Assembly: GCA_030528025.1 (NCBI GenBank)
Contig: JAUMZP010000003.1
Span: 1-64,000, forward strand
Length of the DNA: 64,000 bases
From: Candidatus Saccharimonadota bacterium
Lineage (GTDB): Bacteria > Patescibacteriota > Saccharimonadia > Saccharimonadales > Saccharimonadaceae
Direction of reading: 5' to 3'
Position 1 is the first letter of the stretch, and every line of letters begins with the position of its first letter. A program made the position numbers and the translations under genes. The notes beneath the pieces were generated by a model. The model was not told the DNA's origin, did not search any database, and saw only the letters and a program-made list of their open reading frames with translations. This document shows positions 1-62,646 of the stretch, piece after piece.

Positions 1-763
1 GCTCGTTCATGTCATAGCAGTGTTTCTCAATCGCTTCGCAGCAGTTCTGGCTGACAGCGAGGAGTGTGGCAGAGTCCATGTCTGGGTCAGCCTTAAGACC
101 CTCAATGCAGATGTCTATTGCTCTCGTGTATTGCTTCATCTCGACGTAGCACGCTGCCATGCGGAATGCGATGTCAGGAACCATTTCACGCGGCGCCTTG
201 GTTAGCGCGCGTTGGAAGCACTCAATACCTTTTTCGTACTTCTTTGTGAAGTAGAATGTGACGCCGCGTACTCGGTAGACATCCACGGTGTCTTCACCGA
301 GCTCATCAAGAACATAGGCCTCGTCTGCATAGTGTTTTGCTTCTCGCCAGTTTTCCTCCGCTAGCTCGATCCATGCAGAGATCACATGGGCGTTGGGGTC
401 GTCACCATGCTCGTTTCGTGCCTTGCGTGCGGCAATGCTGGCCGCTCCGGGGTCGTCAGCGAAGTAGTACGTCCAGGCGCGGCCGATCCAGTCGATATCC
501 TGCTCAGCCACTTCAGGCAGTGCTCGCAGAGAGCGATCGTATGCATCGCGCGAGTCTTCGTTTGAGAACACGTTCGAGGCGTTCTCAATCATCTTGAGCT
601 TTGCTCTCGCCTCTTCGCCGCGGCTGCCGTTTAGTGATGCGCGTTGCCGCCACTGCATGCGGATCTTATTCAACTGCACCTGAATGTCGGGGGTGGCGTC
701 GTCCTTGTCCAGGTTCAGTTCCTGGTAGTAATCGACCACAGCGACAGTCTGCTCATATGCCAT
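1..763 (-). CDS. J-domain-like/TPR protein, partial (runs off the left edge)
   Basis: Read on the minus strand from ATG at 763, this frame stays open to base 1, so at least 254 residues of an unfinished protein are present. Residues about 10-75 resemble a J-domain fold: YYQELNL near the start, a basic stretch RMQWRQRAS, and a closing SRDAYDRSL that matches the usual xxRxxYDxxL end of J domains. The HPD tripeptide needed to stimulate Hsp70 is not visible. From about residue 95 the sequence looks like tetratricopeptide helices, for example KKYEKGIECFQRAL and MKQYTRAIDICIEGL, so it probably binds protein partners in the cytoplasm. Codon use is GC-rich and unlike the genes after 3.2 kb. No clear ribosome-binding site precedes the start. 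The open frame and repeats are seen directly; the J-domain call is inference. Confidence 0.72.
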   Translation of the reverse strand, partial: MAYEQTVAVVDYYQELNLDKDDATPDIQVQLNKIRMQWRQRASLNGSRGEEARAKLKMIENASNVFSNEDSRDAYDRSLRALPEVAEQDIDWIGRAWTYYFADDPGAASIAARKARNEHGDDPNAHVISAWIELAEENWREAKHYADEAYVLDELGEDTVDVYRVRGVTFYFTKKYEKGIECFQRALTKAPREMVPDIAFRMAACYVEMKQYTRAIDICIEGLKADPDMDSATLLAVSQNCCEAIEKHCYDMNE

Positions 764-1383
764 CTCTAGGGTTCCTAACTCAACGATTCGGGATTCGGAG
801 AGGAAAGCAAAGCGAGTGGGAGACGCATCGTTGCGCGCAGGCGCCGGTGCTGTCCTGGCTCGTATTCGCTTGGCGAAACCGAGATTAGTGAGACCGTGGC
901 GTAATAGACCAGTATGAGTGTTGAGACTTAGAAGTAAGACCTACCGAAGGGTGCTGGTGTGTGGTATTGCGCGTACGTTGTGGTGGGCAAGCGTCGTTGT
1001 TGGTGAGGTGGCACAAGTGGTGCTTGCGGATATAGTAGACAATCTCAGAATGCGTAGCGACTGTCGTCAAGTGAGTGCATGCGCCAAAGAGTGCTGGGGT
1101 GACGCCTCGTCTCACAATGTGGTCAATCGATGAAGCGGTAGAAATTGATCTGCGTCAAAGCGGGGTGTTGAGTCATCAATGATTGAAGTGTCTGCCTGGG
1201 AGTATTTGGCTTCATTCTTAGGAGAGGTCTCGCCTGGTGTGCCTGAAAGGTTGGCGAAAGTTTGCTGATTCTCCTGGTGGGGGTGTTGACGTCTTCGAGC
1301 CGTAACTAATCTGTCTGCTGGTGCTGGCCAGCTGCGTCTGCTGGCTTCGTTGTTGAATCATTCGTCGTGATGAGGAGATCGAT
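764..1383. other. 620-base stretch without a convincing gene
   Basis: This lies between the divergent TPR protein (minus) and response regulator (plus) and should hold both promoters. I see no gene-length frame. A 29-codon plus-strand frame at 1180-1269 exists but has no supporting signal. No tRNA, repeat or strong terminator hairpin was recognised. Confidence 0.5.
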
Positions 1384-2022
1384 GTGGATCAGGCGTGCTC
1401 AATCATTGTGGTTGACGACCACGACATCATTGCCAAGGGCTGCCGCCTGGTGTTTGAGGATGCCGGACTGCCGTGGTCGGTGCGCTGGTACGCCAGCCTG
1501 CATGATGTGGAGTGGCCCGATGGCCGGGCGCTGGTGATCCTGGATCTGCGGCTGGAGGACGGCTCGACGCCAACGCAGAACCTGCAGGAGATCGAGCAGC
1601 GCGGCCTGCCCGTCATCGCCTATACGTCAGCGGAGAGCCCGATCCTGGTGCGTGAGGCGATTGCCGGGGGAGTGCTGGCGATCGTGCGTAAGTCCGGGCC
1701 GTCGAGCGACCTGGTGCGAGCGATCCAGGACGCGCTGGACGGCAGGCTGAGCGCCGGCCTGGACTGGGCAGCGGCACTGGATGCTGATGAGGACTTCGTC
1801 GTCGACTACCTGGCGCCGATCGAGGCTGACGTGCTGGCGCACTACGCGGAGGGTGAGAAGTCTGAGACGGTGGCCCGGATTCTGAGCCTGTCGAAGAACA
1901 CCGTCAACACCTACGTGGCACGCATCCGGGACAAGTACCGTGCTGCCGGGCGCCCGGCCGACACCCGCGTGGATCTCTTCCGCCGCGCGGCCGAGGACGG
2001 GCTGGTGAGCTACTATGGCTGA
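1384..2022 (+). CDS. LuxR/NarL-type response regulator
   Basis: A 212-residue two-component response regulator. The N-terminal receiver domain (about 1-120) has the acidic pair in VVDDHD, the phosphorylatable aspartate in VILDLRL, and the conserved lysine in IVRKSG. The C-terminal part (about 140-205) is a LuxR-type helix-turn-helix; the segment SETVARILSLSKNTVNTYV is the DNA-binding helix pair. It should bind DNA when phosphorylated by a sensor kinase. Start is GTG at 1384 with AGGAG eight bases upstream. The stop overlaps an ATG in TATGGCTGA, a typical translational-coupling junction to a sensor gene, but that next frame is broken. GC-rich codon use looks actinobacterial. Two-component systems are scarce in Saccharibacteria, so this gene is foreign or contaminating. 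Confidence 0.85.
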   Translation: MDQACSIIVVDDHDIIAKGCRLVFEDAGLPWSVRWYASLHDVEWPDGRALVILDLRLEDGSTPTQNLQEIEQRGLPVIAYTSAESPILVREAIAGGVLAIVRKSGPSSDLVRAIQDALDGRLSAGLDWAAALDADEDFVVDYLAPIEADVLAHYAEGEKSETVARILSLSKNTVNTYVARIRDKYRAAGRPADTRVDLFRRAAEDGLVSYYG

Positions 2023-2573
2023 CCCGCCTCGGCGGGGATGCTGAGCGAGTCAGTTCCCCCGGTGAGTACCGGCTGCATGTGCGCCGTCTGGTGGCGTTGT
2101 TCGCGGGCCTTGGCGTCCTGGAGATTGGCATTTTGTCGGGCCCAACGGTCTACTTCACCGAGGGTGTGAAGCCGATTGCGGCCGCCATGCTCCTGGCGCC
2201 GATAGTGGTGCTGGCGGTGGTGATAGCCGGCGTGGCGGCGGGCACGATCTATCTGCGCCGCTGTGGGAGGCCTCGGCGAGACTTGCTGCGTAGAGCCGAT
2301 CGGTTGCTCGCCGGCCTGCTCGCAGCACTTCTTGGTGTCTATGTTGCCGTTGCGTGTGTCCTTGCTGCGACCCAGCTACTGCCGATTGCGGCGCCGGGCG
2401 ACGGGCCTCCAGGATGGCGTCGTGCGCCCGGCCAGGGCCCCAGCACCCTCTCGAGGGTGGGGTGGATCTGGGTGAACGACCGGCCCCGCACCCACGTTAC
2501 GAAAGACCTCTACCGTTTTGCGGTAGGTTGTTCCCCTTATCAGCGGTCACTATCGCCCGGCTGCTGCGGGTGA
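2015..2573 (+). pseudogene. Frameshifted, truncated membrane sensor (histidine kinase-like N-terminus)
   Basis: The ATG at 2015 overlaps the regulator stop, but its frame ends after nine codons at a TGA. The neighbouring frame beginning within GDAERVSSPGEYRLHVRR then runs on to 2573, which suggests a one-base shift in the G-rich run near 2033. The continuing frame encodes three hydrophobic segments (around VALFAGLGVLEIGIL, IVVLAVVIAGVAAG and AALLGVYVAVACVLAATQ). After about 2400 it becomes low-quality sequence with no HisKA or HATPase motifs. The likely origin is the partner kinase of the upstream regulator, reduced to its membrane part. The frame break and hydrophobic segments are seen; the kinase identity comes only from position and topology. 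Confidence 0.55.
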
Positions 2574-2853
2574 CAACACCCCCGGATCATTAGAAGACAG
2601 GGGCAAGACATCATGCCCACAGCAGCTGGCCCAGCCCCGGACCACCCGGGACCACCAACAAGGTAACGGGGAGCCGGACATCAGCAGACTTTTCAGGACA
2701 AGGGATTGAGTAGTCCCCACTCATCGTCCTTGTGGAGCCTGCGTTCCCATCCCGACCAGATATTAATTCCCATCAAACTGGTTCAGCCGCTATATCCCAC
2801 TGACTTCGCTAACCTCTGACTGCACCCAGCGCCCACACCGGACAACCTCCTGT

Positions 2854-3060
2854 TCACCGGCATGCCGGAGGGCATATATCCTCAATAAATTCCCTGATGC
2901 CATCCTCCGTTGATTTGGTGTCCATAGTTTTACCAAGTTCCTTGCGGGCTAAAGAGCTGAGTACTCTACCTGGACCGCACTCGACCTGAGTCCTAACTTC
3001 AAGCTCCTGCATCACATGGAGAGTTTCTCTCCAACGAACTCTTCCTGTAAGAAGGTGAGG
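2854..3060 (-). pseudogene. fabD: C-terminal remnant of malonyl-CoA:ACP transacylase-like gene
   Basis: The minus strand encodes LTGRVRWRETL, then VECGPGRVLSSLARKELGK and a normal TGA stop at 2854. The pattern xLTxxVRWxET followed by ExGPGxVLxxLxxK is the end of the FabD acyltransferase fold. Only about 65-68 of the usual 300 residues remain; the catalytic GHSxG and histidine regions are missing. Going upstream the frame dissolves into AT-rich sequence around 3070-3110. Its codon use is less GC-rich than the regulator at 1384, so it may come from a different donor. Saccharibacteria generally lack fatty-acid synthesis, so a lone stub is out of place. It could also be the end of a polyketide-type acyltransferase. 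Confidence 0.6.
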
Positions 3061-3213
3061 AGGGGCGGCCAGTTGTTTGTGTTGATAATATAATGATAAT
3101 ATAATTTTACACTAAGAATAAAATCTATTGAGCGTAATGAATGCTTGATAGCCCCAACAGACGAAACAAGCAAGATAATAACCTAAACTTATTGATATAG
3201 TAAAGGAGAAGCA

Positions 3214-3744
3214 ATGAGCCAACAGTTAGAACGAGAGCGCACATTCCTCGCAAAAGAGCTGCCGCAAGAAATCAAAACAACCAAGCCAACTCGCATTGTT
3301 GATATCTATATCCCAGACATGCCAGCACATTCTCACCTTCGTCTCAGACAAAACGGCAAAACATATGAAATCACCAAGAAGACCTCCGTTGCAGTAGGTG
3401 ATGCGTCCGAGCACATTGAGGAAACCATCCCTTTGACAGAGGAAGAATTCGCAGCACTCTCACGTTGCAGTGCAAAGCGCGTTGCAAAGGACCGCTACCG
3501 CGTCGTGATTGATGGCACACTCGCCGAAATTGATATATTTATCGAGGATCTGGCTGGGCTTGTGCTGATAGATTTTGAGTTTAGTACAGAAGCCGAGAAG
3601 GATGATTTTACTCCACCAAGCATTGCCCTTGCCGACGTCACACAGGAGGATTTCATCGCTGGAGGTCTACTCGCCGGCAAGACATACGATACCATTGCGC
3701 CAGAGCTTGCGCGGTTTTGCTATAAAAAGCTTAATAAAGAGTAG
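3214..3744 (+). CDS. CYTH-domain protein (triphosphate tunnel phosphatase family)
   Basis: A 176-residue protein with the CYTH pattern: the N-terminal charged ERERTF strand (variant of ExExK), a basic strand LRLRQNGKTYEITKK around residues 40-55, and acidic strands VIDGTLAEIDIFIEDLAG and LIDFEFSTE that would line the beta tunnel. Family members bind and hydrolyse triphosphate compounds such as thiamine triphosphate, inorganic triphosphate or ATP with divalent metal; the substrate here cannot be told. ATG follows AAAGGAG with normal spacing. It is the first gene after the compositional change at the left edge and has its own terminator. Confidence 0.8.
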   Translation: MSQQLERERTFLAKELPQEIKTTKPTRIVDIYIPDMPAHSHLRLRQNGKTYEITKKTSVAVGDASEHIEETIPLTEEEFAALSRCSAKRVAKDRYRVVIDGTLAEIDIFIEDLAGLVLIDFEFSTEAEKDDFTPPSIALADVTQEDFIAGGLLAGKTYDTIAPELARFCYKKLNKE

Positions 3745-3769
3745 TTCTAGTTTATTCGTCATTCACTAT

Positions 3770-3801
3770 AAAAATACCCACCCTGCTAGGTGAGTATTTT
3801 T
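3770..3801 (+). terminator. Hairpin terminator between CYTH and HAD genes
   Basis: Arms AAAAATACCCACC and GGTGAGTATTTTT pair with one mismatch around a six-base loop. It lies between convergent genes and has A and T flanks, so it can serve both strands. Confidence 0.8.
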
Positions 3802-3850
3802 ATATACCACAAGTTTTCGCTCTTTTGGTCAGTCTATGAAATAAAGGTTC

Positions 3851-4609
3851 TTACTCCGTTACACCCAAAATCCCATCCAGAGCATAGGCGGTTGTTTCCC
3901 AGCCATTGACGGCAATGCTGTCGATGCCCATCGCGCGGACTGGGTAGTCGTTACCCCCTTCTTCGATCTTATCACCAAAGAAGAGGACTTCGTTTTTTTC
4001 TAGCCCATTAGCTTCAAGCAGCTTCTTCATGCCATAGGCTTTGTCGATGCCAGGACGGGTAATGTCGGTGCTGGTAGTGCCGCCAATACGCACTTCGAGG
4101 CCAGGCAGCTGTGCCGCTACTTTATCGCGGTAAATTGGCCGGATATCCTTGTATTTCTCTGCCCAGGCGTATTTTTCCTCTGGAGTGGCCTGCTGTCCCA
4201 AGGCAGATATAGTAATCTGGCTCTGACGATCCTCGATAATCTCACCTGCTGGGTGCTCACACCAGATCCCCATCTCCCGTGCAGTCGACTCAAGCACACT
4301 CACGATTTGCGCCTTTTGCTCATCCGTCAGATCCTCAGCATACTGCAACTGCCATTCGCCTGCGTGCGGGTCGAAACGATAATAGCGCGTACCACACGTC
4401 GGCATAGCGTGAAACTTAGCCAGTAATTCGGGTGATACATCAAGGCGGCTAGTCACCTGCTTTTGGATCTGCTTGAAGTCTCCACCAGTGATGACACATA
4501 CATCATACTTCTCCAGTAAGCGCCCCAGCAGAGCCGCCATCCGGTCGCTCACGGGCGACTTCGTTACTGCTAACGTATCGTCTAGATCAAATGCAACCAA
4601 TTTTTTCAT
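3851..4609 (-). CDS. HAD-superfamily phosphatase (phosphomannomutase-like cap)
   Basis: A 252-residue haloacid dehalogenase enzyme. Motif I is DLDDTL near residue 8 (nucleophile and general acid aspartates). Motif II is the VITGG region near 40. Motif IV is GDKIEEGGNDYPV near 218-230, where the acidic residues bind magnesium. The EGGND form is typical of subfamily IIB members related to eukaryotic phosphomannomutase, so a sugar-phosphate phosphatase or mutase role is plausible, but the substrate is not shown by sequence. AGAGGAG precedes the ATG. It points toward the CYTH gene and shares its terminator. Confidence 0.8.
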   Translation of the reverse strand: MKKLVAFDLDDTLAVTKSPVSDRMAALLGRLLEKYDVCVITGGDFKQIQKQVTSRLDVSPELLAKFHAMPTCGTRYYRFDPHAGEWQLQYAEDLTDEQKAQIVSVLESTAREMGIWCEHPAGEIIEDRQSQITISALGQQATPEEKYAWAEKYKDIRPIYRDKVAAQLPGLEVRIGGTTSTDITRPGIDKAYGMKKLLEANGLEKNEVLFFGDKIEEGGNDYPVRAMGIDSIAVNGWETTAYALDGILGVTE

Positions 4610-4730
4610 GACAAATTCTCCTCTTGTAGCTAATTAATGTGCCATTATCATACCATAAAATATGACAAATACATAATAGAATAATCGGTCGCTACCATTC
4701 TACCGAGCGCAAGCCACCGGCACCATCCAT

Positions 4731-5939
4731 CTATCGTACAAGCACGAAGCTATTTTTGCCTTTTTTGATCAAGCTTGGGCTGGTCGCTGGTTGATCACTG
4801 GTGATTTTTGCACCGTCAAGGCTAATGGCATTGTTTTTGATGAGGCGGCGTGCTTCGCCATTGCTAGCGCAGACCTCAGCCTCCACCAGAGCGGTCACCA
4901 CTGATTGAGGTGAGACGGTTGGGATCTCGTCAGCCAGCGCATCAAGATCTTCCTCACGCAGTGTCGATAGGTCATTGTCACCAAAGAGCACACTGGTTAC
5001 TCGCTCCACACTCTCGCGGCGCTCATGGCCATGGACGATATCGGTTACTTCTCGTGCGAGAGCCTTTTGTAGGGTGCGCGTGCCAGGGTTAGCGCGGTGG
5101 GTGTCGATTAATGTTTCGATAGTTGCTTGATCAAGTAACGTGTAGATCTTGATCAAGTCTTCGCTCGTCTCGTCATCGCAGTTGAGCCAAAATTGATAAA
5201 ATTTGTATGGGCTCGTCAGTGCTGGGTCAAGCCAGACTGCACCACCTTCCGACTTGCCGAATTTCACTCCTGTCTGCTTATTAATCACGAGCGGTGCCGT
5301 CAAGACATGAGCTTCACCGCCCTCGAGCTTACGAATGAGCGACACGCCTGTCACGCTATTACCCCATTGGTCGGCACCAGCCAATTGCAGCGTCGCACCC
5401 TTCTCGCGGTACAGATGCAAGAAGTCATAGCCTTGAATCAGTGCATAGCTAAATTCACCATAGCTAATGCCTGCCCCGCCTTCGCCGATCCGTTGCTGCA
5501 CAAAATCGCGGTCGAGTAGCTGCGTCATACTCACATGCTTACCGATCTGGTGCAAAAAATCGACATAATTAACATGAGCAAACCAATCGGCATTATTAAC
5601 TACCGCAAAATTCTGGCCGCGAAATATCTGTCGAAATTGCGCCGTCAAGCCCTCAACACTACGTGCTACCGTTTCAGCATTGCGGAGATCACGCTCTTGC
5701 TTTTTACCGTCTGGGTCGCCAATCATCCCGGTTGCGCCTCCCACAAGCAACAGTGGCGTGTGTCCATGGTCGATGAAGTGCCGGCATAGCATCATAACGG
5801 CTAAGTTGCCAATTGTCATGCTCGGTGCACTCGGGTCAACGCCGATGTAGAAAGTGCGTGGCTCATTGATGTCATTGATATCAGCAAACGTCGTTTGGTT
5901 AATGAATCCGCGCCAGGTTAGTTCTTCTGCTAAGGTCAT
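4731..5939 (-). CDS. tyrS: Tyrosyl-tRNA synthetase
   Basis: Attaches tyrosine to its tRNA in the cytoplasm. The 402-residue length fits bacterial TyrRS. The Rossmann domain carries the HIGH-equivalent in DPSAPSMTIGNL (about 33-45) and the KMSKS-equivalent KFGKSEGGA (about 227-235). The tyrosine-binding segment GYDFLHLY and the QWGNS element are present. The last 65 residues form an S4-type RNA-binding domain (NGEARRLIKNNAISLDG). The ATG at 5939 follows GGAGGAC. No T-box leader was seen in the roughly 160 bases between it and the divergent penicillin-binding protein gene. Confidence 0.97.
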   Translation of the reverse strand: MTLAEELTWRGFINQTTFADINDINEPRTFYIGVDPSAPSMTIGNLAVMMLCRHFIDHGHTPLLLVGGATGMIGDPDGKKQERDLRNAETVARSVEGLTAQFRQIFRGQNFAVVNNADWFAHVNYVDFLHQIGKHVSMTQLLDRDFVQQRIGEGGAGISYGEFSYALIQGYDFLHLYREKGATLQLAGADQWGNSVTGVSLIRKLEGGEAHVLTAPLVINKQTGVKFGKSEGGAVWLDPALTSPYKFYQFWLNCDDETSEDLIKIYTLLDQATIETLIDTHRANPGTRTLQKALAREVTDIVHGHERRESVERVTSVLFGDNDLSTLREEDLDALADEIPTVSPQSVVTALVEAEVCASNGEARRLIKNNAISLDGAKITSDQPATSPSLIKKGKNSFVLVR

Positions 5940-6058
5940 GTGTCCTCCACTCTTGCTTTTTCTTATGCTCGTGTATTGCTATTATTTTAGCACGAAATAG
6001 CGTGAAGTAGCGGGGCTGCGCCGCAGGAAAAGACTAGCCCTACCCACCTACATAATGC

Positions 6059-6064
6059 TATAAT
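6059..6064 (+). promoter_or_regulatory. -10 box for the penicillin-binding protein gene
   Basis: TATAAT lies 37 bases before the GTG start and leaves room for a short leader containing AGAGGA. No good -35 box is seen. Confidence 0.5.
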
Positions 6065-6101
6065 GCAGAGGAATATTGCGTGTTAGAGGAAATAAGAGAT
6101 C

Positions 6102-8774
6102 GTGGTTAAAAATAATTTATCACATCGAGTTAGCGTCTACTCCAACCTTGCAGCCAAGCGCCGCACCAAAAAAGACGCCGAAGCCCGCCGCAGAGCGGAG
6201 TACTTGGCAAGCCTACCCAAGCAGCCTCTCAAACGGCTACTCTATCGCTTGCATCCACGCCGCGTGGCACAATTCTTATTTAGCAAGCGTGGGGCTTATG
6301 CCATCCTCAAGGTAGTTGGTGGGTTTTTCCTCGTGCTCGCCCTTATTATCGCTGGACTCTTCACCTACTATCGCAAAGACCTCGATGCAATTCGCCCAGG
6401 CGAGATAGACAAACGCGTCCAGACCACTGTTACCAAATATCTCGACCGTAGTGGCCAGCTCCTCTGGGAGGATAAAGGTAGCGGCGACTACAAGCTCGTG
6501 GTCGATGGCAACCAGATTAGCGACTACGTCAAGAAGGCAACGATCGCCGTGGAAGACCGTGATTTTTATAACCACCACGGTATTAGCCTGGCTGGTATTT
6601 CTCGCGCATTCCTGAGCAACTCACAGGGTAATGCCGTACAGGGTGGCTCAACACTGACGCAGCAGCTCGTCAAGCAAGCCTTCTTCGAGAAGAGCGAAAT
6701 CGAAAAACGCGGCCTCGATGGTATACCGCGCAAGATCAAGGAGGTGATCCTCTCGATTGAGGTCGAGCGTATGTACAATAAAGATCAAATCCTGAATCTC
6801 TACCTCAACGAAGCATCATACGGTGGCCGTCGTAATGGTGTTGAGTCGGCTGCGCGCACCTACTTCCAGAAACCAGCTAAGGACCTAACACTAGCCGAAT
6901 CAGCACTGCTTGCCGGCATTCCTAACAGCCCTGGGCTCTACAACCCGTACAACACCGCTGGCAATACCGCGCTTATCGCTCGCCAACACAAGGTGCTTGA
7001 TAGTATGGTAGAGATGAATTATATCACCAAAGCACAAGCCGCAGAAGCTAAGAAGGTCGCTGTTCTTGATACCATCAAACCAATGGCGGACCAACTCGCC
7101 GATATCAAGGCACCGCACTTCGTCCTGATGGTGCGCGACCAGCTCGAAAAAGAACTGGGCAAGTCAACAGTCGGCAAAGGCGGCCTCACCGTTACAACCA
7201 CGCTTGACTCGACACTCCAAGGTAAGCTTGAGAGCCGAATGGAGAGCATGTTTAATGGCAAACTCACGAACTCCAACTGTGGTAATACCAACTGCGCAAC
7301 CTATGCTGGCTTTACCAATGGCGCAGCCGCTATCGAAGATAATAAATCTGGTCAGATCATAGCACTGGTTGGAAGTCGTGGCTTTAACCACGCTGGTTAT
7401 GGGCAAGACAATGCCGCCACCGCCTTTATCCAGCCTGGCTCGTCTATCAAGCCACTGGTCTACGCTCAGCTCTTCCAAAACAAGGGCAATGGCAAGACCA
7501 ACTATGGGAGTGGCTCTGTCCTCTCCGACTCAAAGATCAGCTTTGGCAGTTGGACACCACAAAACGCTGATGGTAAGTTCCAAAACAACATTAACCTCCG
7601 CCAAGCTCTTGCTCGCTCGCGCAACATCCCCGCCATCAAGGCTATGCAAGAAAACGAGCGCAATAGGCGCGGCAGTACCTGGCAAACCATTCGCGAGATG
7701 GGCGACAGTGCTTACTGCACCCAGGGTGCAGATGCCCAAGCTGGCCTATCGAGCTCCATCGGTAGCTGTGGCACACGCCTCGTCGATCACGTCAATGCCA
7801 TCGCATCTTTGGCGCGGATGGGTACCTACACCCCACAATCAACGGTTCTCAAAGTGACTAATAGCACTGGCCAAGTCCTTAAGCAGTACACAGCCTCTAC
7901 CAAACAGGTGATCGATCAGCAAGCTGCCTACATCGTCAACGATATCCTCGGCGACTCCAGTGCACGGGCCAACCTCGGTGGCGGGCAAGACTACATGCCA
8001 CAAATGAACCGCCTCAAGGCAAAGACCGCTGTCAAGACCGGTACATCAAACTCCGAGGTCAACGGCAAGGTGGTAGCAAAGGATATTTGGACAGTCGGCT
8101 ATACCCCAGCACTGTCGATGGCTGTTTGGCTAGGCAACTCTGATACGTCACCACTTCGTAATGGTAACTCACTCATCCCCGCTATGCTGCTCGATTATAC
8201 CATGGCCGATGCTACGCAATACTACGTTAGCCAAAACAAAGCGTCGTACAGCGATTGGTTCTCTGCTCCGAGCGGTATCCAACGAATCAACAACGAAGTC
8301 TACCCATCGTATTACAATAAAAACTCCAACCGCAGTAGCAACACAATGTCATTCGATCGGGTATCTAAGAAAAAAGCCACAAGCTGCACACCAGAGTCAG
8401 CCCGCGTTGACATCCCTGTCACTCGGTCAAAGGACTCCTCAGGCAAAGAGACTGTTTCGGCTCAAGATGGCTATGATGCAACCAGTAATGACGACACTCA
8501 TCGCTGTACCGACTCAAAACCAAGTGTTTCTGTCGCCGTAAGCTCTAGTGGGCAATCGGCGACGGTATACTACCGGCAGGGTAGTCACCCACTTCAACAG
8601 TTAGAGGTGAAGGTGGGTGACCAGCTCGTTGGCACACGTCAGGTCAACAGCGATGGCGACACTAACGTCTCTATCCCCTCCTCTGCTGGCAAAAACTTCA
8701 CCGTGACTGCCACATTGACAGACAGCGTATACTACAGTGACAAAAACACCGCTCACGGCCAGCGAACAAGCTAG
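6102..8774 (+). CDS. Class A penicillin-binding protein (PBP1A-like)
   Basis: A bifunctional peptidoglycan synthase of 890 residues: glycosyltransferase plus transpeptidase, anchored in the membrane and acting outside. A basic cytoplasmic tail precedes one membrane segment near residues 70-90. The GT51 domain has the catalytic glutamate in VEDRDFYNHHG (about 148) and QGGSTLTQQLVKQ (about 180). The transpeptidase domain has the SxxK serine in PGSSIKP (about 447), the SxN in ARSRN (about 508) and KTGTSN (about 645). A Ser/Asn-rich region and a small beta-rich tail follow. Start is GTG at 6102 preceded by AGAGGA. As this may be the main wall polymerase of a reduced genome, beta-lactam sensitivity would be expected. 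Confidence 0.95.
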   Translation: MVKNNLSHRVSVYSNLAAKRRTKKDAEARRRAEYLASLPKQPLKRLLYRLHPRRVAQFLFSKRGAYAILKVVGGFFLVLALIIAGLFTYYRKDLDAIRPGEIDKRVQTTVTKYLDRSGQLLWEDKGSGDYKLVVDGNQISDYVKKATIAVEDRDFYNHHGISLAGISRAFLSNSQGNAVQGGSTLTQQLVKQAFFEKSEIEKRGLDGIPRKIKEVILSIEVERMYNKDQILNLYLNEASYGGRRNGVESAARTYFQKPAKDLTLAESALLAGIPNSPGLYNPYNTAGNTALIARQHKVLDSMVEMNYITKAQAAEAKKVAVLDTIKPMADQLADIKAPHFVLMVRDQLEKELGKSTVGKGGLTVTTTLDSTLQGKLESRMESMFNGKLTNSNCGNTNCATYAGFTNGAAAIEDNKSGQIIALVGSRGFNHAGYGQDNAATAFIQPGSSIKPLVYAQLFQNKGNGKTNYGSGSVLSDSKISFGSWTPQNADGKFQNNINLRQALARSRNIPAIKAMQENERNRRGSTWQTIREMGDSAYCTQGADAQAGLSSSIGSCGTRLVDHVNAIASLARMGTYTPQSTVLKVTNSTGQVLKQYTASTKQVIDQQAAYIVNDILGDSSARANLGGGQDYMPQMNRLKAKTAVKTGTSNSEVNGKVVAKDIWTVGYTPALSMAVWLGNSDTSPLRNGNSLIPAMLLDYTMADATQYYVSQNKASYSDWFSAPSGIQRINNEVYPSYYNKNSNRSSNTMSFDRVSKKKATSCTPESARVDIPVTRSKDSSGKETVSAQDGYDATSNDDTHRCTDSKPSVSVAVSSSGQSATVYYRQGSHPLQQLEVKVGDQLVGTRQVNSDGDTNVSIPSSAGKNFTVTATLTDSVYYSDKNTAHGQRTS

Positions 8775-8804
8775 TGCATCTTTAACAGAGAATAGTTATA
8801 ATAC

Positions 8805-8830
8805 CCTGCACCTACGGTTGCAGGATTTTT
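8805..8830 (+). terminator. Terminator of the penicillin-binding protein gene
   Basis: CCTGCA and TGCAGG pair around an eight-base loop and are followed by ATTTTT. It sits 30 bases after the stop codon. Confidence 0.75.
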
Positions 8831-9047
8831 CATAATGGAGGATTTGTTGCTATGCTCAGAATTGCACTGCCTTTGTTCGAGTAGCATGTAGTCACTTGTA
8901 ACATAAGACTTATTTTGCAATGAGGATACAGTGGTTTGAGGTCTAAGATGAGAGTATGACGTGTCTAATATTGTAGTCCAGATAATAACTCTAGCCTATT
9001 TGAGATACAGCCAAATTAGGATTCACAACCACATAAGAAAGTGAGGG

Positions 9048-11005: not shown

Positions 11006-12364
11006 TTATGTTTTTAGATAGGTAATGAGTGCGCTGCGGATATCGCGCACATCATGAACAAAGGGCGTCTTAAAGCCAGAATGCGGAGCAATTGCTTTGG
11101 TGAAGCCAAGTTTTTGCGCCTCAGCAATGCGCCGCTCAGCCGCTTGGGCACTGCGCACTTCACCCCCAAGGCCCACTTCGCCAAATACTACTACGCCATC
11201 GTCAAGACGTCGGCCAGCAGCAGCACAAGCAATTGCCATGACAACGGCTAAGTCGGCCGCCCGATCAGCCAGTTTGAGTCCACCGACAACGTTGATGTAG
11301 ATATCTTTATCGGATAATTGCAATTTGGTGCGCCGCTCGAGGACAGCGATCAAAAGGTTGAGTCGGTTGAGGTCAAATCCGCTGGCTGTCCTCTTAGGAT
11401 ACCCGAAATGGGTTGGATTGACAAGTGCTTGGATCTCGACAAGGATAGGGCGGTTACCCTCGAGGGTAGCCAGCACTACTGAACCATCAGCATTTTGACG
11501 TTCGGCAAGCAGCGCAGCTGAGGGGTTCTCTACCACTGCCAGGCCACACTTACCCATAGCAAAAATTGCCGCTTCATTCGTGCTACCATAGCGGTTCTTG
11601 ATGGCCCGCACCACTTTAAAGCCGCCGTAGCGATCGCCCTCAAACTGCAGCACCACATCCACGAGATGCTCAAGTACCTTAGGCCCTGCGATCGACCCTT
11701 CCTTTGTCACATGGCCCACCAACACTACCGCCGTCCCTGATTGCTTGGCCGCTTGAATGATAACGTTGCTGGCGTTAGTAATCTGGCTTACGGTGCCTGG
11801 TGCACTGGTGATCTCAGCCAGGCTCAGTGTCTGAATCGAATCGACAATTACCAGCTGATATTGGCTGGTGCGGATGGTAGCCGCAATATCATCAGCACTT
11901 GTGCTCGCTGCAAACGACAATGCCTCGTGCTGGTCGGCACCTAGTCGCGTCGCCCGCAGCGCCACCTGCCCAGCCGACTCCTCGCCACTGATATAGAGCA
12001 CCGCATGCTGCCGAGCAACCGCATGCGCGACCTGGAGTAAGAGAGTGCTCTTACCCATGCCTGGCTGCCCTGCCAGAAGAAGCACTCCACCAGGCAAAAT
12101 ACCACCACCTAGCACTACATCAAGATCAGCAATACCCGTTGCAAGTCGTGCCGCTGGCTCATCCTGGCTTGCAGCGGCGGTAATTGGCCGCGGCTGTAGC
12201 AACGTACCCTGGCTAGCACTGCGTGCCACAGCTGATTTGCCCACCAGAGCTGGCGCTTGCTCAACGAGGCTATTCCACTGGCCGCATTGTTCGCACTTAC
12301 CGGTCCATTTTGGTGAGCGCGCACCACACTGCTGGCAAACAAACACCGTGCGAGCTCGTGCCAT
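11006..12364 (-). CDS. radA: DNA repair protein RadA/Sms
   Basis: A RecA-like ATPase for recombination intermediates, 452 residues. A four-cysteine zinc finger opens the protein (CQQCGARSPKWTGKCEQCG). Walker A is GQPGMGKSTLLL near 97. The RadA-specific KNRYGS motif is near 257. The C-terminal third is a Lon-protease-like domain (INVVGGLKLADRAADLAV). The start overlaps the stop of the upstream HExxH gene as TAATG, so translation is coupled. It lies in the heat-shock operon headed by clpC. RadA is also needed for natural transformation in several bacteria, which fits an organism thought to scavenge DNA. Confidence 0.96.
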   Translation of the reverse strand: MARARTVFVCQQCGARSPKWTGKCEQCGQWNSLVEQAPALVGKSAVARSASQGTLLQPRPITAAASQDEPAARLATGIADLDVVLGGGILPGGVLLLAGQPGMGKSTLLLQVAHAVARQHAVLYISGEESAGQVALRATRLGADQHEALSFAASTSADDIAATIRTSQYQLVIVDSIQTLSLAEITSAPGTVSQITNASNVIIQAAKQSGTAVVLVGHVTKEGSIAGPKVLEHLVDVVLQFEGDRYGGFKVVRAIKNRYGSTNEAAIFAMGKCGLAVVENPSAALLAERQNADGSVVLATLEGNRPILVEIQALVNPTHFGYPKRTASGFDLNRLNLLIAVLERRTKLQLSDKDIYINVVGGLKLADRAADLAVVMAIACAAAGRRLDDGVVVFGEVGLGGEVRSAQAAERRIAEAQKLGFTKAIAPHSGFKTPFVHDVRDIRSALITYLKT

Positions 12365-13362
12365 TACACTTGCTCCTTAGGTTGCTCAATGCCATTAATG
12401 CTTTGGTTCAGCTCATTAGCGCGTACCGACAAGGCATTGAGCCGAGTGATCTTCGCATTATATATCTCAACGCGCTGATTAATCGCTAGCCGCTGCGCCT
12501 CAAGCGCTCGCTGACGTGCCAAGAGCTTCTTACGTGCTGCCTGGAATGATGCATCATCGCGAAAGCCGCCATTTTGGGCTCTCGCATTAAACACCTTAAT
12601 ATCAGCCGACAGCTGCTCAGCCATCTCTTTGTACTGTGCTTGGTCAGTGGGGAGCTGGGTAGCTTCTTGGTTGATTGCCTTGCTGAGCGCTTTGGCTTCT
12701 TGATCGACTTTATCAAAGACAGCTTGATAGGCATCGCTGCGTGCGACGATCACCGCACGGTTACGAAAATACCGACTATAGTGCTGCTCTAGCTCGCTGT
12801 TGATTGTACCAATCTGTGTGCCAATAATAGAATGAAGCTCATTATTACGCTCGCCTGGTTCGGCCTGGTCATAATACTTCACCATTGAGGCAATGACCGG
12901 ATTGGTCTTGATCTTGGCGTACTCTGCTTCGATAAGCTTGTCAATCCGCTGTCGTTCGCCCGAACCAAGCCGCTCATATGCGGCATGTAATAACTCGTGT
13001 GCTGTTGTGACGGGTTCGGCGTTAGTCAGTTCTTGATTCTGTACATTGTAGACGTAAATCCGGCGCAGGTGGTAGCAACCAAGGATAGCTGCTGTGCGCT
13101 CAGTTGATTTGCAGCTTTTGTTAAACTCAGCCTTGTCCTGCAATTGTGGCTGACTCGCATAGAGCAGCTGCCGACCTTTATCGGTCAGCTCAAGCTGATC
13201 AATCACCGCTTGCATTGCACTATCGGGCTGGTACCGGCTCGCCACTGCAGCATCGTAGAGCTCCGGGCCATAGGTCAGCCCAGCCCAGGCCATACCACCG
13301 ATCATCACTAGACCGACCAGTGTTGAGAGGAGGCGCTTAGGCCTTTTCGCTACGTGCGTCAA
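12364..13362 (-). CDS. Membrane-anchored HExxH protein of unknown function
   Basis: A 332-residue protein not assigned to a named family. After a short basic start, residues about 10-35 form one membrane segment (STLVGLVMIGGMAWAGLTYG). Near residue 122 the sequence TTAHELLHAAYERL contains HExxH, the zinc-binding core of many metallopeptidases; a third zinc ligand is not obvious. The C-terminal half is strongly helical and charged (coiled coil). Two cysteines (KSCKST, ILGCYHL) precede the HExxH. It overlaps the clpC stop by 26 bases and radA by TAATG, so it belongs to the CIRCE-controlled unit and may act in envelope protein quality control. That role is inferred from position. Confidence 0.7.
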   Translation of the reverse strand: MTHVAKRPKRLLSTLVGLVMIGGMAWAGLTYGPELYDAAVASRYQPDSAMQAVIDQLELTDKGRQLLYASQPQLQDKAEFNKSCKSTERTAAILGCYHLRRIYVYNVQNQELTNAEPVTTAHELLHAAYERLGSGERQRIDKLIEAEYAKIKTNPVIASMVKYYDQAEPGERNNELHSIIGTQIGTINSELEQHYSRYFRNRAVIVARSDAYQAVFDKVDQEAKALSKAINQEATQLPTDQAQYKEMAEQLSADIKVFNARAQNGGFRDDASFQAARKKLLARQRALEAQRLAINQRVEIYNAKITRLNALSVRANELNQSINGIEQPKEQV

Positions 13363-58096: not shown

Positions 58097-59086
58097 ATGA
58101 CAAAACCAGACTATATTAGCCTAAAGAGTTGGGTTGTTGCTGGCCTGTTGAGTGTGACAGGGCTTGTGGCAGCAACAACATTCCTGGCACCGAGCCAAGC
58201 GGCCGCGAGTAGCGATTTGCGCTCAGCTACTATAAGCCGCAAGAACTACAACGAGGCAATGAGCAGCATCGACCAGCAAATCAAGCAAGAAGAGAGTGAC
58301 AGCAGCATTCGCCCAGAGTGCCGCACATACACGAAGACCCATAGCAAGCGTGCTGCAAAGGCCATCCTCATGATTCACGGCATCAGTGGCTGCAGTAACG
58401 TTTACCAAAAGTTGGCAGATGAATTCTACAACCAAGGCTACAACGTCTACGTCCCACGCGTACCCAAGCATGGCTACACAGACAACAAACGCCATGGCGA
58501 GATCTCTACCAAAGACATTGCCGACTTCATGAAAACAAGTGCACAGCAAGTGAGCGGCCTGGGCGATGAGCTTGGTATTGTTGGTCATTCTGGTGGTGGT
58601 GATATGGCGACGTGGCTTGCGCAGTATGGTAATGGCTTCTTTACGAATGTGCTACTGCTCGCCCCATTCTACGAGCCAGCAGCTAGCCAAGCCCCTAAGT
58701 GGCAACTACCCGTCTTGCGCACATTGTATGGCTATAACATTCTGCCAGATAAGTTTAGCCCAAGTGGCTTGTCATACCGCGCACTCGGCAAGTATCTCAT
58801 CGTCAAAGAGAACTTCAAGAAAAACCTTGCTGCACCGGGCCTCAAGCGCGTTGCGACAGTGACGAGTGAGAATGATGACGCTGTCGATAACGGTTTGGCG
58901 GTAAGCATTCCGCAGCGCATGGCTCAAGCAAACAATGCATCATTCCAACACTACAACCTGCCAAAGCGACTCAACATCGGTCACAATATGGTTGGGTCAA
59001 CTGATGGTGGTATGGCTACCTATCACCAGGCAGTCTACGCGCAGTACCTCAACCTCTATGAGGGTCGCCAAACTGCCGAAATCTAG
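58097..59086 (+). CDS. Secreted alpha/beta hydrolase, copy 1 (lipase/esterase-like)
   Basis: A 329-residue exported enzyme. A signal peptide or anchor (VVAGLLSVTGLVAATTFLAP) precedes the alpha/beta-hydrolase fold. ILMIHGISGC near 90 supplies the oxyanion region, IVGHSGGGDMATWL near 160 holds the nucleophile serine, and RLNIGHNM near the end holds the catalytic histidine. The acid is probably in TSENDDAVDN. An external esterase, lipase or acyltransferase acting on host or envelope lipids is likely; the substrate is unknown. AAAGGAGG precedes the ATG. A close paralogue lies 2.6 kb away on the other strand. Confidence 0.88.
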   Translation: MTKPDYISLKSWVVAGLLSVTGLVAATTFLAPSQAAASSDLRSATISRKNYNEAMSSIDQQIKQEESDSSIRPECRTYTKTHSKRAAKAILMIHGISGCSNVYQKLADEFYNQGYNVYVPRVPKHGYTDNKRHGEISTKDIADFMKTSAQQVSGLGDELGIVGHSGGGDMATWLAQYGNGFFTNVLLLAPFYEPAASQAPKWQLPVLRTLYGYNILPDKFSPSGLSYRALGKYLIVKENFKKNLAAPGLKRVATVTSENDDAVDNGLAVSIPQRMAQANNASFQHYNLPKRLNIGHNMVGSTDGGMATYHQAVYAQYLNLYEGRQTAEI

Positions 59087-61651: not shown

Positions 61652-62646
61652 TATTGCCTCCCTTCGTATGTATTAAGATATGTTCGGAAAACCTCCTCAC
61701 TATGAGCGCTCACCCCCGGCGAAGCGCGCCGTGTCATGTCGTGGCCAATATTCATGCTGGCAGGGAATTTTTTGTATTGGAAGGAAGCATTATTGTTGGT
61801 TGCCATTTTTTGCGGGATGTCGTGCGCGAGGTCTGGGTCGATATCGTGATCCCCTTCACTCACGACCACACCAACATGCTTGAGACCTGGTGCAGCAAGA
61901 TTGGCTTTGTAGTTTTCTTTGAGCGTTACATACTTTGCTAGAGTGCGATACGACAAGCCATTCACCTCATCATTACCACTGTAGCGGTCTGGTAAGATAT
62001 TATTGCCGTAGAGGTTGCGCATGAGCGGGATCTGCCACTTGGGGGCCTGGCTAGCCGATGGTTCATAAAATGGCGCAATGAGAAGCACCCGCGAGAAGAG
62101 TCCATTACCATACTGCGCAAGCCACGTTGCCATATTGCCACCGCCAGAGTGGCCCGCCACCCCAACTTCCTCACCAAGGCCGCTGACCTGGCGAGCACTC
62201 GTGGTCATATAATTGACCATGTCACTAAAGGAGATCTGGCTATGGCGCTTCTTGCTGGCATAGCCATGCTGTGGCACGCGCGGCGCGTAAACGTTATAGC
62301 CCTGCTCGTAGAATACATTGGCAATATCTGCCATATCACTAGTGCAGCCACTGATGCCGTGGATAAGTAAGATAGCTTTAGCTGTTTTCTTGCCATGTGT
62401 CTTGGCAAACGAGCGGCATTCATTGCGCAGACCAGCCTCTGCTGTATCCTGGGTAATTTGCTGGTTGATAGCCGCCATCGAGCCATCATAATCCAGTCGT
62501 TTGATGTCTGCTGTGCGTAGTTCTGCCTTTTGAGCGGGCCACAAGAAGGCAGTTGCAATGGCAACCGCACTGACCGCAACGATGCCGCCAATAAGTGTAG
62601 CGATTACTTTTATAATTCCGGCTTGGGGTGAGGGAGAATCTTTCAT
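61651..62646 (-). CDS. Secreted alpha/beta hydrolase, copy 2 (lipase/esterase-like)
   Basis: A 331-residue paralogue of the protein at 58097. A membrane segment (GGIVAVSAVAIATAFLWPAQ) is followed by the same fold: ILLIHGISGC, VAGHSGGGNMATWL with the nucleophile serine, EGDHDIDPD as likely acid and SMNIGHDM with the histidine. The stretch APFYEPSASQAPKWQ is nearly the same in both copies. Differences include a GNDEVNG insertion near residue 230. A CATACT box lies seven bases before the ATG. It forms a unit with the HXXEE gene. Confidence 0.88.
   Translation of the reverse strand: MKDSPSPQAGIIKVIATLIGGIVAVSAVAIATAFLWPAQKAELRTADIKRLDYDGSMAAINQQITQDTAEAGLRNECRSFAKTHGKKTAKAILLIHGISGCTSDMADIANVFYEQGYNVYAPRVPQHGYASKKRHSQISFSDMVNYMTTSARQVSGLGEEVGVAGHSGGGNMATWLAQYGNGLFSRVLLIAPFYEPSASQAPKWQIPLMRNLYGNNILPDRYSGNDEVNGLSYRTLAKYVTLKENYKANLAAPGLKHVGVVVSEGDHDIDPDLAHDIPQKMATNNNASFQYKKFPASMNIGHDMTRRASPGVSAHSEEVFRTYLNTYEGRQ

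Follow-up and report, generated by a model that had tools for sequence, protein, structure and literature searches.

A probable rearranged piece of an Actinomyces integrative island at a chromosome junction of an epibiotic saccharibacterium

Groundwater Patescibacteria are known to gain genomic islands, and most of their single-gene transfers take place between Patescibacteria (PMC12455944). A type IV secretion system of Patescibacteria has been proposed to import host DNA (PMC12102498), and some phages have spacer links with Saccharibacteria as well as with Actinomyces (PMC10746230). The gain of islands by Patescibacteria is thus nothing new in itself, but no report of a host integrative element at the tRNA genes of an epibiont was found in the part of the literature covered. 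The locus described here joins DNA of Actinomyces type to the chromosome of an epibiont.

The window, meaning the whole analysed stretch of 64,000 nucleotides, covers positions 1-64000 of contig C15 (101,177 bp), and its position 1 is the contig end. As the window opens this contig of a ~1.03-Mb, 15-contig draft (1,026,247 bp; estimated to be 98.6% complete and 0.16% contaminated), testing for contamination was necessary. Exact 55-bp stretches are common to contig ends of the draft, as in a short-read graph with k = 55. The features of the left end, with strand where one applies, were as follows.

2-763, minus strand: TPR protein of Actinomyces with a weak DnaJ-like start, cut by the contig end (Pfam TPR_2, 1e-12)
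725-2406: block collinear with A. oris G013:C6:87504-89184 (90% over 1685 bp)
1384-2022, plus strand: intact LuxR/NarL-type response regulator of Actinomyces, 212 aa (Response_reg and GerE above cut-off)
2025-2405, plus strand: truncated sensor kinase start, first ~127 aa (93% aa identity over 127 aa to A. oris 88794-90425)
2393-2670: IS110-family remnant with ~515 bp missing inside; its halves lie ~515 bp apart in intact copies of many Actinomyces
2694-2819: short Actinomyces segment (82% over 60 bp to A. oris G013:C6:85213-85272)
2862-3050, minus strand: C-terminal fragment of a FabD-like acyltransferase (65% aa identity, E 1e-16, to Actinomyces G023:C14:2987-3139)
3051-3085, minus strand: X, a 35-bp fragment of the island end gene, which encodes a double-HTH protein (peptide NTNNWPPLLTF)
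3085..3086: junction of Actinomyces DNA and native chromosome
3214-3744, plus strand: first native gene, CYTH-like by eye, with relatives in genomes of the genus
3851-4609: HAD phosphatase, native
4731-5939: TyrRS, native

By sequence comparison, positions 1-3085 are Actinomyces DNA and those from 3086 onward are native, which fixes the junction to a single base. No DNA similar to window 1-3700 was found in 12 other genomes of the epibiont's genus, while parts of it were matched in 42 of 49 Actinomyces genomes, many at the IS110 remnant only; the whole 3-kb arrangement was present in none of these 49. Positions 18-927 showed 88% DNA identity to Actinomyces, and the TPR protein was 88% identical over 254 aa to Actinomyces locus L038 (G043) and 43% identical to the A. 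oris gene at the equivalent place. The regulator, whose gene is single copy in the draft, was 95% identical in amino acids to those of A. johnsonii and A. oris. In A. oris the genes for regulator, kinase and TPR protein follow the order seen in the window, and the A. oris counterpart of the truncated kinase is a 543-aa membrane protein, which from reading its sequence we take to be a sensor kinase, the partner of the regulator. The A. oris match of segment 2694-2819 sits 2.2 kb from the regulator block, and the segment was 69% identical over 126 bp in A. johnsonii. A native origin of the FabD fragment was considered and rejected, with 0 relatives in 100 other genomes of the epibiont's family. 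An intact copy of the IS110-family element encodes DEDD_Tnp_IS110 (E 2e-42). The last ~200 bp of this element (window 2471-2670) are strongly conserved and largely non-coding in dozens of Actinomyces copies (loci L032-L065), a pattern that fits the end where IS110 elements carry their guide RNA.

The composition agreed with this division. GC at 1.3-2.5 kb was 0.65-0.68 versus 0.515 ± 0.031 (maximum 0.582) in 1-kb tiles of the remainder, and the third-position GC of the regulator gene was 0.836 versus 0.557 ± 0.058 (maximum 0.660) across 43 native ORFs; the TPR gene, at 0.661, was mildly GC-rich only. The original prediction of GC-rich codons with a change of style at ~3.07 kb, of a LuxR-type response regulator (by its Pfam domains) and of an actinobacterial donor was borne out by these values and by the regulator and DNA identities, with the junction at 3085/3086 close to the predicted point and Actinomyces as the donor. 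The J-like/TPR protein was correct as to TPR, while its DnaJ domain fell below the Pfam cut-off. Likewise, the description of the left-hand pieces as broken holds for the sensor kinase start cut at 2405, the IS110 remnant, the FabD tail and the 35-bp gene fragment, but not for the intact regulator or for the TPR gene, which is cut by the contig end only. Scans for Rfam families and tRNA genes, over the window or the leftmost 10 kb of it, returned nothing. Within the native part, a 550-bp inverted repeat, 70% identical, was observed at window 58316-58853 and 61872-62421.

The fragment X recurs as the start of the HTH gene at the C15 right end and at the start of C10, to both of which it is 33/35 identical, and it is 86% identical to A. 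oris. The double-HTH gene was found in 27 of the 49 Actinomyces genomes, and among 151 genomes of the epibiont's family the draft alone held close copies. An inverted repeat at both C15 ends was considered and rejected, X being merely the start of an Actinomyces gene. Contigs C2, C8, C10, C12, C13 and C14, together with window 1-2406, match one ~42-kb Actinomyces island, be it in A. oris (G013:C6 66-108 kb), in A. johnsonii (G014:C13 63-105 kb) or in the same region of two other Actinomyces. That six contigs match a single island speaks against unrelated host debris, which would derive from all 3.2 Mb.

In Actinomyces, the double-HTH gene starts at one end of the element and a large serine integrase ends at the other, with a coupling protein, a Replic_Relax protein and defence genes in between. 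The A. oris integrase (659 aa; Resolvase, Recombinase and Zn ribbon all present) and tRNA-Leu(TAA) meet with their 3' ends at the core, TGGTGC, which is GCACCA read on the other strand. At 66.6 kb (66,642) in A. oris, the integrase end is followed by TGGTGC and the HTH gene start; this joint lies within a tandem array and is as expected of tandem copies. In three Actinomyces the same integrase end precedes tRNA-Leu; in G023 it precedes tRNA-Lys, and a ~7-kb version of the element there carries a Gabija pair. The best explanation of these arrangements is that tRNA genes would serve as the target, the integrase joining the element to their 3' end, GCACCA or GTACCA. The coupling protein was found in C11 and C12 of the draft and in a second genome of the genus, G012; Replic_Relax was seen in A. 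oris only. Gabija (GajA/GajB) is part of the cargo predicted from sequence, together with an OLD-like ATPase and a PDC-S06 candidate; other defence systems were matched weakly.

Several further observations concern these islands. Gabija pairs on tRNA-linked islands lie at L022 (C13) 1647-4956, L103 (G023:C21) 5248-8898 and G012:C6 86.7-89.3 kb, the last copy being fragmented. A 603-aa, very acidic low-complexity protein adjoins the coupling protein at L020 (C11) 4471-6282 and L158 (G012:C2) 1-716. A family of ~260-326-aa proteins with the start M..DW..VA.DYEASTLD, to which no known family was assigned, is present in multiple copies near the islands in the draft and in G012, at L017 (C8) 3449-4231 and 11102-12967 and at G012:C6 84893-85873.

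Other junctions with the native genome were found in the draft, and most of them sit at contig ends. At the C3 end, an intact native tRNA-Gly(GCC) is followed by GCACCA and then directly by a 49-bp integrase end, letter-identical to that in C13, where it follows Actinomyces tRNA-Leu(TAA). One assembly therefore holds the same element end behind an Actinomyces tRNA-Leu and behind an epibiont tRNA-Gly. At the C15 right end, a native tRNA-type terminator (a hairpin plus T-run) is followed by 13 bases, the TGGTGC core and the start of the HTH gene, which continues in C10. Contig C10 itself holds island DNA to ~8.1 kb and native genes at 8.6-10.8 kb (66% to G012). At the C5 and C8 ends, 12 identical bases follow native tRNA-Leu(CAG) and tRNA-Leu(TAG), and those 12 bases also occur beside the HTH-gene core inside C8. 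The integrase is represented in the draft by its 49-bp 3' end only, and no intact integrase was seen in the draft contigs read; C4, C6 and C7 (1.3-1.8 kb) were N, and a contig bearing an integrase or rRNA may be among them.

Synteny in relatives places the C3 end and the C15 right end on the two sides of one tRNA-rich variable region. A single proven insertion running from C3 through the element to C15 is not claimed, as G012 has other tRNA genes and some 20 kb between the corresponding genes. Three tRNA-Pro genes have nearly the same terminator, at which C9 ends on both sides (L018 1-118, L027 8057-8174), and are native, not mobile. Their shared 42-bp tails were considered as a third element and rejected, since G012 has a like native terminator at all three tRNA-Pro genes.

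The second genome, G012, is of the same genus (GC 0.47), with 43 tRNA genes in the stretches read. Two of these 43, tRNA-Leu(CAG) and tRNA-Leu(TAG), carry GC-rich tails (0.68) of one and the same sequence. The tail of tRNA-Leu(TAG) leads into an integrase that lacks its catalytic start (534 aa, C6:83.0-84.6 kb, 67% aa identity to A. oris), with fragmented Gabija genes after it. At tRNA-Leu(CAG), what follows is a 0.5-kb remnant of an integrase (C2:97.6-98.2 kb), which stands mid-contig between native genes. At C2:6.2-8.7 kb, an A. oris-like stretch (80%, 2.5 kb) is followed by native genes, and the G012 coupling protein was 93% identical in amino acids to that of draft C11. Seven other relatives have AT-rich native terminators at tRNA-Leu(TAG) and/or (CAG), that is, empty sites, and the tRNA-Gly(GCC) of G012 is likewise empty, with a native terminator. 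The same sites are thus seen in two species, and empty ones in their neighbours.

At the window junction itself, the core and the initial 20 bp of the HTH gene are missing from X; att core and tRNA are absent at 3085/3086, where just 2 bp are shared. Because the junction has neither core nor tRNA, the window piece is an island-derived remnant rather than an intact end, and the best reading of it is a rearranged remnant of actinobacterial integrative-element DNA. On the native side, collinearity with G012:C2 142-161 kb takes in the HAD phosphatase gene, the TyrRS gene and a further ten genes as far as 24 kb. The genes at the far ends of C15 (a HAD phosphatase and a glycosyltransferase) are neighbours in G012, at G012:C2 160.5-162.4 kb, a hint that the 98-kb segment may have been rearranged between copies of the island.

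The alternative that survives best, which we consider unlikely, is a local chimera at the left end of the window: an Actinomyces contig of the sample would have been joined to an epibiont contig during library preparation or assembly, and the island account may hold regardless. The missing att core at 3086 is consistent with such an event, as are the position of the join near a contig end and the short-read graph traits with their exact 55-bp end overlaps. Host contigs of near-native GC could also have been binned along; wrong binning of host DNA may apply to some small contigs and above all to C13. However, the join falls inside a fragment of the very end gene that marks the other island junctions. 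The longest exact match between X and C10 is 18 bases, and there is no 21- or 33-base overlap at the join to mislead an assembler. In addition, G012, another species, carries such DNA mid-contig. Taken together, the join inside the element's end gene, the want of a long misleading word and the sister joins elsewhere speak in favour of a real junction at 3085/3086.

Slightly less probable is sharing through a third party, in which a phage, a plasmid or another actinobacterium, and not the Actinomyces host directly, would have supplied the DNA. Some phages are spacer-linked to Saccharibacteria and Actinomyces (PMC10746230), and the lack of the whole 3-kb arrangement in any sequenced Actinomyces would fit such a source. 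Nevertheless, the pieces of regulator, kinase and FabD come from genes that are ordinary in Actinomyces, and a phage or plasmid origin of the 3 kb was rejected: no match was found in 50,697 phage records, and the plasmid search gave a 134-bp match only, at window 2484-2617 within the IS110 remnant, in two plasmids. Exact element-end patterns were absent from viral contigs. Very improbable is a third alternative, in which host contamination would account for all the Actinomyces DNA of the draft and every join would be an artefact. Host and epibiont are lysed and sequenced together and the 0.16% estimate is no safeguard, as island genes are not markers, but the joins coincide with the end of the island itself and, to the base, with the 3' end of the native tRNA-Gly, the 12 identical bases stand behind both native tRNA-Leu genes and beside the HTH-gene core in C8, and the independent genome G012 repeats the pattern.

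The preferred reading is therefore that window 1-3085 is a rearranged piece of an Actinomyces island now in the epibiont chromosome, and that the element inserts at tRNA genes; we assign it a probability of roughly 0.74. Because sister junctions coincide exactly with the 3' ends of tRNA genes and the same element type is present in another genome of the genus, host-to-epibiont gene transfer is most likely, judging from these sequences, rather than an assembly mix-up. Of the two readings first offered for the locus, host-to-epibiont transfer is thus the better supported, but not as the simple decay of a random piece, since the DNA is part of a tRNA-targeting serine-integrase island. In the proposed course, the element would have been excised in Actinomyces and would have reached the attached epibiont either through DNA uptake or through a conjugation-like mobilisation. 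The serine integrase would then have inserted it behind a native tRNA gene; finished junctions of this kind are seen at tRNA-Gly(GCC), and tRNA-Leu(CAG) and tRNA-Leu(TAG) have tails of element type. Subsequently, the copies would decay and rearrange, decay being visible in the truncated integrases of G012, and in the window this step would have left the end-gene fragment, the FabD fragment and the IS110 scar.

At somewhat less than an even chance, we also put forward that live integrative elements carrying anti-phage cargo pass regularly from Actinomyces cells to the oral-type Saccharibacteria that sit on them, and that the two share an active mobile pool across the phylum border, the draft having caught one element in both partners at the same time. 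That these reduced epibionts gain genes is known; donor genus, element ends and native tRNA landing sites are visible together here in two species, as is rarely the case. It thereby becomes testable if living hosts are a source of DNA for Saccharibacteria, and what route that DNA would take. As the cargo includes Gabija and further defence genes, such traffic could carry phage immunity between parasite and host.

Compared with known systems, the element is most like actinobacterial integrative (mobilizable or conjugative) elements with large serine integrases. The integrase end abuts a tRNA 3' end with a short shared core, in A. oris a coupling protein and Replic_Relax lie nearby, and tandem copies and defence cargo are present. 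It differs in being joined here to the chromosome of an epibiont from another phylum; in addition, a double-HTH gene starts at the opposite core, and the epibiont integrase is incomplete or unseen. The type IV secretion system of Patescibacteria offers a possible entry route; the paper that proposes it (PMC12102498) presents no transferred element, whereas here the DNA is seen and the route is not. The islands of groundwater Patescibacteria are alike in having been gained by bacteria with reduced genomes, and the present case differs in that the donor genus, the ends and the tRNA sites can be named.
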